A DNA stretch of 36,689 bases from a virus. A program made the position numbers and the translations under genes. Positions 10,340 to 31,634 of the stretch are shown here, piece by piece (position 1 is the first letter of the stretch; each line of letters begins with the position of its first letter). Location of the stretch: positions 1-36,689 of the IMG/VR virus record IMGVR_UViG_3300025009_000266; one strand, written 5' to 3'. Under the pieces are notes generated by a model. It saw nothing but the letters and a program-made list of their open reading frames with translations. It ran no database searches and had not been told where the DNA came from.

Positions 10340-10798
10340 ATGGAGATTAAAAAAGAGACAGCAAGGAAGCTCTATGACACCGCTCCTGAGTGGTTTAAAG
10401 AGCAGCTGGAGGCAGCCTTTGGAAAAGACAGCTTCCGGAAGATCAATTTCGAAGACATTAAAACCTTTGAAGATGCTTGCCAGGCTCTGGATATTGATCC
10501 GGATGCCGTATGGGGTGATATTGATACTCCTGATGAAATAGCTTATAAGAAGCTGAAGGTAATTATTCAGGCAATCAACCAGGGTTGGATACCTGACTGG
10601 AATAATACCAATCAAAGAAAATGGTATCCCTGGTTTAATCTGTCGTCCGGTTTCGGGTTCGGCGTTTCGGATTGCGACTACGGTAACACGAGTGCGTGCG
10701 CCGGTTCGCGCCTTTGCTTTGAAACTGAGGAAAAATCGGACTATGCAGCGAAGCAATTCCTTGAGATATACAAAGAGTTTGTAACCATAACAAAGTAA
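10340..10798 (+). CDS. DGR-type variable protein 1
   Basis: A 152-aa protein. Residues 64-152 form a C-terminal module (NQGWIPDWNNTNQRKWYPWF, LSSGFGF, GSRLCFETEEKSDYAAKQF) of a family common in Bacteroidota mobile elements. The variable stretch is residues 106-116. Compared with the adenine-rich copy at 11246-11293, every difference falls on a template adenine (AGG to GGG, GAC to GGC, GAT to GTT, AAT to GAT, TAC to TGC, GAT to GGT). This is the signature of diversity-generating retroelement targets. There is no signal peptide or tail domain, so the protein is probably intracellular or not a classical receptor-binding protein. Ligand unknown. Confidence 0.78.
   Translation: MEIKKETARKLYDTAPEWFKEQLEAAFGKDSFRKINFEDIKTFEDACQALDIDPDAVWGDIDTPDEIAYKKLKVIIQAINQGWIPDWNNTNQRKWYPWFNLSSGFGFGVSDCDYGNTSACAGSRLCFETEEKSDYAAKQFLEIYKEFVTITK
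10640..10717 (+). repeat. Variable region VR1
   Basis: 48 nt (10640-10687) agree with the template-like copy at all 37 non-adenine positions and differ at 6 of 11 adenine positions. The following segment 10695-10717 is a 23-nt GC-rich stretch identical to 11107-11129 in VR2, in the place where DGRs carry the initiation-of-mutagenic-homing (IMH) element. Confidence 0.8.
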
Positions 10799-10802
10799 AA
10801 TC

Positions 10803-11210
10803 ATGACAAAAAAAACTATTAAATCAGATGCGGAAAAATTTGATTACACATCGATCAAAACCTTCGAAGATGCCTGTAAAAAAATAGGAATTGAACCTGC
10901 AGAACCTGAAATAAAAGCGGTCCATTCTGAAGTTATAAAGTCAATGGTAGCTTATTACAAACTGGTGATCATCTTCCTTGCCATAAATAATGGATGGAAG
11001 CCTGACTGGAGTGACAGGGATCAGTATAAATACTTTGCCTGGTTCTGGGTTCTGTCGTCCGGTTTCGGGTTCGTCGATTCGCTTTGCGTCTGCGATGACG
11101 CGATTTCGTGCGCCGGTTCGCGCCTTTGCACAGATACACGTGAGAAGGCGAAATATGTTGCGGCGCAGTTCGAGGATCTGTACAGGGATTACCTTCTTTA
11201 TTCTGAATAA
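10803..11210 (+). CDS. DGR-type variable protein 2
   Basis: A 135-aa paralogue of the upstream gene (shared KTFEDAC, AINNGWKPDWSDRDQYKYFAWF, LSSGFGF, GSRLC, KYVAAQF), 4 bp after its stop. The variable stretch is residues 89-99 (GFVDSLCVCDD). All changes against the template-like copy lie at adenines (for example AAT to CTT, GAC to GTC, TAC to TGC twice). The two genes differ from each other inside the 48-nt block only at these positions, so both appear to have been diversified from the same template. Product localisation unknown; no export signal. Confidence 0.78.
   Translation: MTKKTIKSDAEKFDYTSIKTFEDACKKIGIEPAEPEIKAVHSEVIKSMVAYYKLVIIFLAINNGWKPDWSDRDQYKYFAWFWVLSSGFGFVDSLCVCDDAISCAGSRLCTDTREKAKYVAAQFEDLYRDYLLYSE
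11052..11129 (+). repeat. Variable region VR2
   Basis: Equivalent of VR1: 48 nt (11052-11099) with 8 of 11 template adenines substituted and no other change, followed by the 23-nt IMH-like block 11107-11129 identical to VR1. Confidence 0.8.
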
Positions 11211-11245
11211 TTAACTCAGGTTGTATGTTGCAGGAGCTGTCAGTT

Positions 11246-11293
11246 CTGTCGTCCGGTTTCAGGTTCGACGATTCGAATTACGACTACGATAAC
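11246..11293 (+). repeat. Template-repeat-like copy (TR), adenine-rich and 3'-truncated
   Basis: Lies 35 bp after the stop of variable gene 2, outside any gene. In the target frame it reads L-S-S-G-F-R-F-D-D-S-N-Y-D-Y-D-N then TGA; the varying codons are AGG, GAC, GAT, AAT, TAC, GAT and AAC, the adenine-bearing codon choice typical of DGR templates. Strict similarity stops at 11293, before the segment that corresponds to the 23-nt IMH-like block of the VRs. No reverse transcriptase follows: the next gene starts at 11329. Confidence 0.75.
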
Positions 11294-11328
11294 TGATAAA
11301 GACGACAGATACTTATTTACCTAAGCTT

Positions 11329-11700
11329 ATGAAGATAGTTTATATAGCGCACCAGATAGCAGGGGACGTACACGGAAACGTGGAGAAGATTTTAAAAATT
11401 ATTAGAGAGCTCAACTTAACCAGGGAAGACATTGTTCCTTTCGCTCCATACATTACTGACGTTCTTGCCCTGGATGATAATGTTCCGGAGGAACGCAGCC
11501 GGGGAATAAAGAACGGGATACAGATACTGAGAAGTGGTATGGTTGATGAGCTTTGGGTATATGGAGAGAAGATATCGGGCGGCGTGGCTGCTGAGATTGA
11601 CCTTGCCTGGGAGCTTAATATTCCGATCATGGTCATGAACGTGGATACTTATGTTCCTGTTGAGTATAAAAGTAAAACAACAGCGGGATGGGTAAAATAG
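11329..11700 (+). CDS. DUF4406/nucleoside deoxyribosyltransferase-like protein
   Basis: A 123-aa Rossmann-like protein: [20 protein letters not shown] at the N-terminus, [13 protein letters not shown] in the middle, and [33 protein letters not shown], the pattern of DUF4406 and nucleoside 2-deoxyribosyltransferase-type phage proteins. These act on nucleosides or nucleotides, or are degenerate relatives; substrate unknown. It follows the template-like copy where a DGR would usually have its reverse transcriptase. Confidence 0.72.
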
Positions 11701-28119: not shown

Positions 28120-30198
28120 GTGGCATACGGACAGTCACATAAGATAGAGTGGAAGGATAACGCGGATATTGATTCGAAGATCGAGATCTGGGAGGAGGGT
28201 TATGTGAGCAGCGTGGTTGAATGTGAGGCAGCCGACGATCCTTTGACGGTAGATGTTGCCCCGATGAATCCGACCATATTTATACCTGTTGTTGGCAAAG
28301 GGGCAACCATAAAAGTACTATCGGTGACAAACGGCCAGTTTCTGGGTTTATATACGCTGGATCCGGTTAAGCGAATGATTAAAATCTTCAAGAATAACCA
28401 GGCTAATCCCTGGTGGCTCGGTTACATTAACGCTGAACAGTACAGCGAGCCTTACAGCAGACTAACCAATTACCCGGTAACTATTAACTGCAACGACGGA
28501 TTTAACGCACTAAGCCGGTTCAAGTACTTAAACGGCACTGATAAATATGTTACCCTGGAAACAATGTGGACGGTGCTGACCAGGATCCTAGCCAGGACCG
28601 GTCTGCCTTACCAGTATATATATTTTGCATCAAAGCTCTCATGTACCGGCGTTACGCCTGCAGCTGATGAAACAATATGGCACAACCTTGAGGTTGACCA
28701 GAACAATTATTATGATGAGCAGGATGAGCCGATGACTCACAGGGCAGTACTGGAGGAACTACTAAAGCCAAAGGGTCTGCAGATAAGGCAGGAGTCGGGG
28801 TCGATATTTATATATGAACCACAGATGCTGGCTGATACCAGCTTCAGCGCCAAGAGGTTCAATGGAACTACATACGCCTATGTTGACACTGTGGCAGTGA
28901 GCAATAATTTTGATATAAGTAACGGGGATATCAACTGGGATAATGAGGACCAGGTACTAAATATAAAGAGTGGATTCAGCAAACAGAAGATACGTTATTC
29001 TCCTTATATGCCCCAGGGTGGAGCTGTTGAAGAGTTAGACTTTTCGGACAGGGATAAATGGACGGGTGCTGAGACGTGGACCCCCACCGCGAGTGGAATA
29101 GAAAGGCTTACGGGTATCACGGCAGTTGAGGGGATGACACTTACTTACGGGTCAAATTTTGCAGGACACAGATTACGATGGGCAGTTGATGACGAAGGTA
29201 TATATGGGCCCGGTGAAGAGGAATTATATCTGCAGCAGCAATTTGACCTGACAGGCATATTGGCAATTATACCTGGTGATATAATTGTCGGGCAAAAATC
29301 TGATCAGTTCCTTTTGTTTGAATGTGATGTATATATCCATTCAAAGGCAAATGGAGAGAATAGTGAAGATGTTAGTGTGATGGCAAGGAGTCTGAAAGTG
29401 CCTTTTACAGTCCAGATTAATTCTAAAGGACCAGTGAAGGACCTTGGTACAGGTTTTTACTCCTGGACCACAGGATCGGGTGACGATCTGTATGCACAGA
29501 AGAGGACCTCTAATTACTCGGAATCGATATGTGATAAATGGCTCCACATTAAACAGGCAATACCATGGAATATACCGGGAGGTAATGTTTATTTATCAGT
29601 TAAAACCCCGGTGGTATATGAAGGATTTGGCACAACAGAATTAGACTCGACTGATGGTATACTGGCCAAGAGAATAAGAAATGCCAAGGTAAGTATATTG
29701 ACAAATGCTGATAATACAGAAGGGGGTATTGTATCAAATGTAAACAAGGCAGATGAGGTGAGTGAAGAAGATGGAGAATATAAGGGAGTTCTTAATGTTG
29801 ACTTCCAGAACGAGGCTCCTGAAATAACGCTGTTTCATTCAGATGCCAGGAACATATCCGACAGAGGAGCTGTGAGAGATAATAACGGGAATTTCACCAC
29901 AGGCTGGAGAAAAACAGGTGATACATCTGATTATATTTTACCTCATTTGCTTTTAAGGTCTATAATAAGCCAATACCAGGAGAGCAATATTGTACTATCG
30001 GGTACTATGGAGGCCGGTGCGCTTATGGATGTCAACGGGGGCCCAAATTTTCTACACACGGTTCAGGACACAGATCAGCCCCAGTGCGGATCCAAAAAAC
30101 TTATGTTCACTGGAGGGCAGTACAGTGATTTTAACAGAACCATAAGTGGTACCTGGGAAGAGATAAGACTCGAGGATTTAACAATTGCGGTGGAATGA
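28120..30198 (+). CDS. Distal tail / tail-tip protein
   Basis: A 692-aa protein starting at GTG 28120 (3 bp after the tape measure stop; a TAA just upstream limits alternatives). The N-terminal part (IEWKDNADIDSKIEIWEEG, DPLTVDVAPMN, YPVTINCNDGFNALSRFKYLNG, LEELLKPKGLQIRQESGSIFIYEP) follows the pattern of Bacteroidota phage tail-tip proteins that combine Dit/Tal-like functions. The C-terminal half is beta-rich. It would form the tip that connects tube and fibres. Confidence 0.65.
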   Translation: MAYGQSHKIEWKDNADIDSKIEIWEEGYVSSVVECEAADDPLTVDVAPMNPTIFIPVVGKGATIKVLSVTNGQFLGLYTLDPVKRMIKIFKNNQANPWWLGYINAEQYSEPYSRLTNYPVTINCNDGFNALSRFKYLNGTDKYVTLETMWTVLTRILARTGLPYQYIYFASKLSCTGVTPAADETIWHNLEVDQNNYYDEQDEPMTHRAVLEELLKPKGLQIRQESGSIFIYEPQMLADTSFSAKRFNGTTYAYVDTVAVSNNFDISNGDINWDNEDQVLNIKSGFSKQKIRYSPYMPQGGAVEELDFSDRDKWTGAETWTPTASGIERLTGITAVEGMTLTYGSNFAGHRLRWAVDDEGIYGPGEEELYLQQQFDLTGILAIIPGDIIVGQKSDQFLLFECDVYIHSKANGENSEDVSVMARSLKVPFTVQINSKGPVKDLGTGFYSWTTGSGDDLYAQKRTSNYSESICDKWLHIKQAIPWNIPGGNVYLSVKTPVVYEGFGTTELDSTDGILAKRIRNAKVSILTNADNTEGGIVSNVNKADEVSEEDGEYKGVLNVDFQNEAPEITLFHSDARNISDRGAVRDNNGNFTTGWRKTGDTSDYILPHLLLRSIISQYQESNIVLSGTMEAGALMDVNGGPNFLHTVQDTDQPQCGSKKLMFTGGQYSDFNRTISGTWEEIRLEDLTIAVE

Positions 30199-31634
30199 GC
30201 GGTACTGTTAACATAACCACCAGATCCTTAATTAAAAAAAGGAGAGATGGACAGACAGGTGATATTAATGAACTGACCCAGGGTACAAATTCTGAGAGTG
30301 GAGTCACTTCAGCCGGTGATCTTCTTGCCACTTATTTTGAAGTTGTTAATCCGGGCGAGGCTGATGAATATTTGAGGGTAAAACTCCCAATAGGTTGCGA
30401 TTACGAAGTTCAGGCTTTTACGGACAGCGGTCAGATGCCTGCCAGTGTTTGGGAGGGGATGCCTATTGCATCGGCCACAGTACTGGGAGGCATTAAGGTA
30501 GGCTCGGGGCTTTCGATAACGGACGGGGTATTAGCGGTAGCTGCAGGCGGAGGTATGGTTTATCCTGGATCGGGCATCGCTTTATCGACAGGATCTTCAT
30601 GGGGAGCATCGATAGCAAATAATTCGGGTAACTGGAATACGGCATATTCACATACTTCACTAACCAATAACCCGCATGTGGTTACGGCTTCGCAGGTTGG
30701 TCTTGGTAATGTGACCAATGAGAGCAAGGCGACGATGTTCACGAATGCGGTGATGACAGGATCATTACAGGTACAGGGCAATAGCGAATTATTCGGGAGT
30801 ACATATAAAATATATGGGCAGAATGATGCTTCGAATTATTATTTAGGACATTATGCTGTATCTGGGGCTGATGGTCTTATGATTCACTGGTACGGAGGGG
30901 TTAAAGTTGAATCAGGCTCAAGAGGGATTCGATTAGAGGGAGACGTTACTACATTCTATACAAATGTTGCCCCTGCAGGTAATACTGTCATTTATGATTT
31001 TCAAAATAACACTGTTTCTGTATTTAATATTACACAAGCTGGAAATGTAGGAATATCAACCGGAGGATTAACTGTGTATGGATCAGTACAGGCCAATGGA
31101 ATGTATACTACTTCGCAATTAACGGTAGGAAGCTATCATTCTACAACAAAATTAGTTTTTGGCAATGATGTTAACCATTTCATAAATTACAATTCTACAG
31201 CCGATGGCATAGATTTAATTGGATATCAAAGAGCTTATCTTGGTGCATCCTTTTATTCAACTTATTTATATGTTGGTAATGGAGCCGTTTATACAAATAC
31301 CAACATACAGGCTGCAGGTGAAGTCACCGCCTACTACTCCTCCGATGCCCGTCTGAAGCAAAATATACAATCATTTTCAGCACTCGATAAGATTGACAGG
31401 ATGCGCCCGGTTACCTTCCAGTGGAATGACAGGGCCAGGGAGCTTAATAACAACAAAGATGACCGGTGGAACTATGGCTTGGTGGCCCAGGAACTGGAGC
31501 CTGTTATGCCCGAAATGGTACATAAGATTTATGACAAGTATAAGTCGGTTGATTATGTACAGCTGGTGCCGGTGCTGCTGCAGGCAGTTAAGGAGTTGAA
31601 ACAGGAATTAAATGCCATTAAAAATGCCAATTAG
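30195..31634 (+). CDS. Tail fibre with C-terminal S74 intramolecular chaperone
   Basis: A 479-aa trimeric-fibre-like protein. The N-terminus (1-95) attaches to the tail; SATVLGGIKVGSGLSITDGVLAV (about 97-120) is a collar-type fibre motif; a beta-repeat shaft follows (SQVGLGNVTNESKATMFTNA). The C-terminal 100 residues are a peptidase S74 domain: SSDARLKQNIQSF with the self-cleaving S383-D384, VTFQWND, YGLVAQELEPVMPEMV and a final trimeric coiled coil. The S74 domain folds the trimer and is then cut off. Coupled to the previous gene (ATGA). Confidence 0.88.
   Translation: MSGTVNITTRSLIKKRRDGQTGDINELTQGTNSESGVTSAGDLLATYFEVVNPGEADEYLRVKLPIGCDYEVQAFTDSGQMPASVWEGMPIASATVLGGIKVGSGLSITDGVLAVAAGGGMVYPGSGIALSTGSSWGASIANNSGNWNTAYSHTSLTNNPHVVTASQVGLGNVTNESKATMFTNAVMTGSLQVQGNSELFGSTYKIYGQNDASNYYLGHYAVSGADGLMIHWYGGVKVESGSRGIRLEGDVTTFYTNVAPAGNTVIYDFQNNTVSVFNITQAGNVGISTGGLTVYGSVQANGMYTTSQLTVGSYHSTTKLVFGNDVNHFINYNSTADGIDLIGYQRAYLGASFYSTYLYVGNGAVYTNTNIQAAGEVTAYYSSDARLKQNIQSFSALDKIDRMRPVTFQWNDRARELNNNKDDRWNYGLVAQELEPVMPEMVHKIYDKYKSVDYVQLVPVLLQAVKELKQELNAIKNAN

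Follow-up and report, generated by a model that had tools for sequence, protein, structure and literature searches.

The diversity-generating retroelement (DGR) of Bordetella phage BPP-1 has an active reverse transcriptase (RT, encoded by brt), an avd gene and a single target, which is a tail-fibre gene. The differences between its template region (TR) and its variable repeat (VR) are adenine-specific, and the VR ends in a conserved IMH-like tail. A DGR has also been found in the hankyphage, a transposable Bacteroides phage, where a large ORF with a C-type lectin domain carries the VR at its C-terminal end and an Avd-like ORF is present (PMC6199706). The signature of DGR RTs is (I/V/L)GxxxSQ (PMC3521204), and C-type lectin folds have been reported for annotated VR regions (PMC8144416). 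Inactivated DGRs, DGRs with several targets and distal targets beside a decayed RT have already been described (PMC3521204, DiGReF, 2012). The inactivated cases combine VR/TR pairs differing only at adenines with an RT disabled by a stop codon, a frameshift or an insertion element but still visible, and this was taken as a sign of very recent inactivation.

The locus analysed here lies in an IMG/VR virus contig of 36,689 bases, called the window below. We consider it very probable that the locus is what remains of an ordinary DGR whose RT and part of whose template were deleted after two genes had been diversified, and that its targets are now frozen. It is classed as a DGR remnant because the RT and a complete TR, two defining features of a functional DGR, are missing. 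Such a remnant is recognized when an intact relative has the cassette in synteny and the loss can be read from the sequence; both are found, in the contig L020 and in the junction at 11294/11297, and they bear out the second of two options given in the original prediction, in which a DGR had diversified two genes before its RT was lost.

Variable repeats, template remnant and missing genes

A block of 48 nt is present in three copies at 10640-10687, 11052-11099 and 11246-11293 (49 nt when the preceding T is counted), and its first 15 nt have no further copy anywhere in the 36,689-base record. The first two copies belong to the variable repeats VR1 and VR2. Compared to the third copy, 6 of the 11 adenines are changed in VR1 and 8 of the 11 in VR2, and none of the 37 other bases is changed in either. 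With random placement of the mismatches the probabilities would be P = 3.8e-5 (VR1) and P = 4.4e-7 (VR2), values which are not strictly independent because VR1 and VR2 have two changes in common. The claim that the three blocks differ only at template adenines is thus exact. That this is a DGR pattern, as was also predicted, is supported by the adenine-only differences in the window together with the intact DGR in the syntenic L020. Non-adenine differences as frequent as adenine ones, which had been named as the result that would speak against a DGR, are seen neither in the window nor in 122 TR-VR pairs of the family.

VR1 and VR2 can be aligned beyond the 48 nt, to 10717 and 11129, respectively, so that VR1 occupies 10640-10717 and VR2 11052-11129, both on the plus strand like the other parts of the locus between 10340 and 11700. 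Their last 23 nt (10695-10717 and 11107-11129) are identical and form an IMH-like tail; among the relatives TR/VR mismatches are present in this tail region. The third copy breaks off abruptly after 11294. It is the 5' part of a TR (11246-11294) which with a leader at 11220-11245 makes up a template remnant at 11220-11294.

VR1 is located in a gene at 10340-10798 coding for a protein of 152 aa, which belongs to phrog_11581 (unknown function) and has 68% aa identity to its orthologue in L020. The VR2 gene at 10803-11210 (135 aa, also phrog_11581) is a paralogue of the VR1 gene with 45% aa identity. Both target genes are still open reading frames, and both VRs lie towards their 3' ends. To the right follow the deletion junction (11294-11297), the last 8 codons and stop (KDDRYLFT*, 11298-11324) of an ORF which in L020 is found behind the RT, and a DUF7768 gene (11329-11700), the right-hand neighbour of the cassette in both window and L020.

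The window thus has two hallmarks of a DGR, TR/VR differences confined to adenines and VRs inside ORFs. It has no nearby RT with the (I/V/L)GxxxSQ motif, and no complete TR with a 3' IMH* copy and a downstream spacer, the TR stopping at 11294. The original prediction stated that no RT is encoded in the window, and a PF00078 search of the whole record gave no match, by which an RT hidden elsewhere in the record is rejected. Truncation of the contig is rejected as the cause because flanks are present on both sides. Between VR2 and the DUF7768 gene there is no accessory gene of Avd size, only the 8 codons of the ORF of about 100 aa. The absence of an Avd-size protein says little, since most RT-bearing relatives have this different ORF of about 100 aa behind the RT.

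The intact relative and the deletion

The closest relative found is the syntenic phage contig IMGVR_UViG_3300044712_002228 (L020/L022), which was located with a DNA pattern built from the template. The order in L020 is VR1, VR2, TR, spacer, RT, the ORF of about 100 aa and the DUF7768 gene. The window is identical to L020 over 75 of 75 nt up to 11294, in the middle of the TR, where the homology ends (7612 on the reverse complement of L020). It restarts 3 nt further on, at 11297, with TAAAGACGACAGATACTTATTTACCTAA, which is the end of the ORF of about 100 aa, and continues into the DUF7768 gene. Because the identity reaches 11294 and the homology resumes at the last eight codons of that ORF, a single deletion of about 1.34 kb has taken the 3' part of the TR, the RT and most of the ORF of about 100 aa. 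The target genes and flanking DNA of L020 are only about 70-78% identical to the window, so that the breakpoint can be placed no more closely than within a few bases. The sequence GATAA is found on either side of the join in the window, and a simple deletion may have taken place through this short repeat.

The course of events would be as follows. The TR RNA would have been reverse-transcribed, inaccurately at its adenines, by an RT whose gene lay between the TR and the DUF7768 gene, and the products would have replaced VR1 and VR2 in the two paralogous genes. The deletion then removed the RT and, with the 3' part of the TR, the stretch where the IMH* copy and the transition to the spacer would be expected, and because of these losses VR1 and VR2 have presumably been frozen since. 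A locus without the 3' part of its template should not be able to work alone.

The orthologous target genes of window and L020 were compared. Outside the VR, dN is about 0.19 for both genes, with dS saturated for the VR1 gene and 2.3 for the VR2 gene. Inside the VR, dS is 0.05-0.10 and dN/dS 2.6-3.9. These values fit the idea that the VRs were rewritten from near-identical templates. The remnant TR has not drifted, although outside the VR the target genes are at or close to saturation at synonymous sites, and this suggests that the deletion is recent compared with the divergence from L020. A similar argument has been made for recent inactivation (PMC3521204).

The phage, its host and the target proteins

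A phage transposase (phrog_310) and a DNA transposition protein (phrog_296) are encoded in the record, which comes from a transposable (Mu-like) phage and also has genes for portal, large terminase, major head and tape-measure proteins. The target genes are found between an endolysin gene and the head genes, away from the tail-fibre gene at 30195-31634; the targets (10340-11210) are outside the tail module. The host is probably a member of the Bacteroidota, judged from relatives, because most genome matches are Bacteroidota and 5 of the 6 named phage matches are Bacteroides phages.

Weak relatives of the targets (L184 and L185, 26-30% identity) occur in the Bacteroides phages Versailles and LoVEphage, where they are found among recombination, replication or other non-tail genes; no RT annotation was found within 4-5 kb of them. 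The relative in Versailles is nevertheless labelled "tail protein".

In the predicted model of the VR1 protein, helices at the N terminus are followed by a short beta hairpin and by further helices at the C terminus (pLDDT 86, with part of the VR below 50). No PDB entry was matched at E <= 0.001 in a Foldseek search, and there was no C-type lectin among the matches listed. Compared to the folds reported for other VR regions (PMC8144416), the phrog_11581 target family may, because of this absence, be an exception. Searches for plasmid relatives found none, an Rfam search around the template gave no match, and a promoter and terminator scan gave no signal above shuffled sequences.

The cassette family and recurrent absence of the RT

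Ten loci were found when the VR1 protein was used as a query, and in the records of six of them an RT is detected with PF00078, always directly behind VR1, VR2 and TR. The RT of the relatives matches phrog_1423 and has the motifs IGNYLSQ, which agrees with (I/V/L)GxxxSQ, and YADD. In a count with trimmed spans, 122 TR-VR pairs, including the two from the window and scored in a way which favours adenine mismatches, differ at 69.5% of the template adenines versus 0.6% of the other bases. As this scoring favoured A, a recount was made over a fixed span of 72 nt with a symmetric offset, the flanks included, and the window and 13 distant genome loci without an alignable pair left out; in these 122 pairs 68% of the TR adenines differ versus 4.0% of the other bases.

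The ORF of about 100 aa (phrog_19665) lies directly behind the RT, or overlaps its end, in most RT-bearing loci, for example at L020:4698-4988 (minus strand), L005:2333-2641 and L013:3647-3946, and in many others. It has no credible Pfam match in the relatives. Its AlphaFold model is confident and beta-rich (pLDDT 91), and Foldseek found no match to it in PDB at E <= 0.001. The ORF may stand in for Avd in this cassette family.

Among 66 non-redundant viral loci an RT is present within 1.5 kb in 56 and absent in 8, and 2 count as undetermined. The 8 RT-less loci all have at least 2.5 kb of downstream sequence, and the RT is absent in 8 of 64 determinable viral loci. The RT-less states differ between loci. 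In L007, L093 and L066 other deletions, whose breakpoints differ, have taken the RT. L007 has lost the whole stretch between the end of VR2 and the final codons of the ORF of about 100 aa, and about the last 20 codons of this ORF are retained in L093. In L066 (6050-6380) the first RT codons are fused in frame to the ORF; the TR is present and the record has no RT. L074 has retained the TR, and there is no RT across its whole 8.7-kb record. L009 and L091, each with a single target, may have other histories. In L009 (6001-6447, the same as L034) and in L010 the VR of the single RT-less target has the template-type tail NTNTNVSSHLC where VGSRLC is usual, as though a TR, its 3' end included, had been copied over the VR. 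Three loci in bacterial genomes (L107, L116 and L124) have two targets and a template-like region with no adjoining RT, and for L116 a PF00078 search of the genome (G018) gave nothing at E <= 0.001.

Alternative explanations

The VRs might still be diversified in trans by the RT and complete template of the host or of a co-resident phage, which we regard as unlikely. The first option of the original prediction, an orphan locus served by an RT elsewhere, is of this kind. The IMH-like tails are intact in both VRs, and there are precedents: in Bordetella, homing from a plasmid donor was shown for a recipient phage devoid of avd, TR and brt (PMC3240598), and Pseudogulbenkiania has distal targets beside a decayed RT (PMC3521204). 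It should also be noted that the sample with prefix 3300044712 holds several related cassettes, RT-bearing ones as well as the RT-less L093. However, the local template has no 3' part, and a complete foreign template would be needed besides the RT. When viral contigs were scanned for the IMH-like tail of the window, three were found, none with a detectable member of the cassette family, and a foreign cassette with this tail is therefore rejected. The more general proposal, that the RT-less target pairs in these phages are alive and rewritten in trans from templates of co-resident phages, has the same low probability; if true, loci that recurrently lack the RT would represent stable parasitism rather than decay.

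Still less probable is a chimeric join made during assembly, the real phage having kept its RT. The junction is known from one assembled contig, and a scan of IMG/VR, which may omit near-identical records, gave no second record with it. At variance with an artefact, what follows the join is the genuine 3' end of the ORF of about 100 aa and then the syntenic neighbour gene, other relatives show RT deletions as well, and only a few nucleotides are possibly common to both sides of the join. Such a match is too short to mislead a k-mer assembler. Duplication of a gene followed by ordinary point divergence, without any DGR, would account for VR1 and VR2 lying in paralogous genes and for nothing further. 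It is refuted by the adenine-only pattern, with 0 of 37 non-adenine differences in both copies, and by the intact DGR which L020 has in the corresponding position, and its probability is practically nil.

Comparison with known systems

The locus is a cleanly readable case of a DGR which lost its enzyme and kept the diversified genes. An adenine-only pattern without an RT thus need not imply a new RT-independent mechanism. Because absence of the RT recurs, the cassette family can be used as a natural comparison between active and frozen targets.

The L020 cassette is found in the same type of phage and at the same place, with the same order of VR1, VR2 and TR, the same right-hand neighbour and the 75 identical nt of the template region, but it has the whole TR, the RT and the ORF of about 100 aa, which the window has lost. 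With BPP-1 the window shares the adenine-specific TR-to-VR differences and the conserved IMH-like tail ending the VR; it differs in having two small targets outside the tail module and neither RT nor avd. The hankyphage is likewise a transposable phage with a DGR, but in place of its large lectin-domain ORF the window has two phrog_11581 proteins of about 150 aa, and no RT. A literature search for orphan or RT-less loci gave unrelated papers only. Most likely the locus adds one more case to the known inactivated DGRs and is no new system. Like those in PMC3521204 it has adenine-only VR/TR pairs and a disabled RT, but here the RT has been deleted as a whole and the TR in part.
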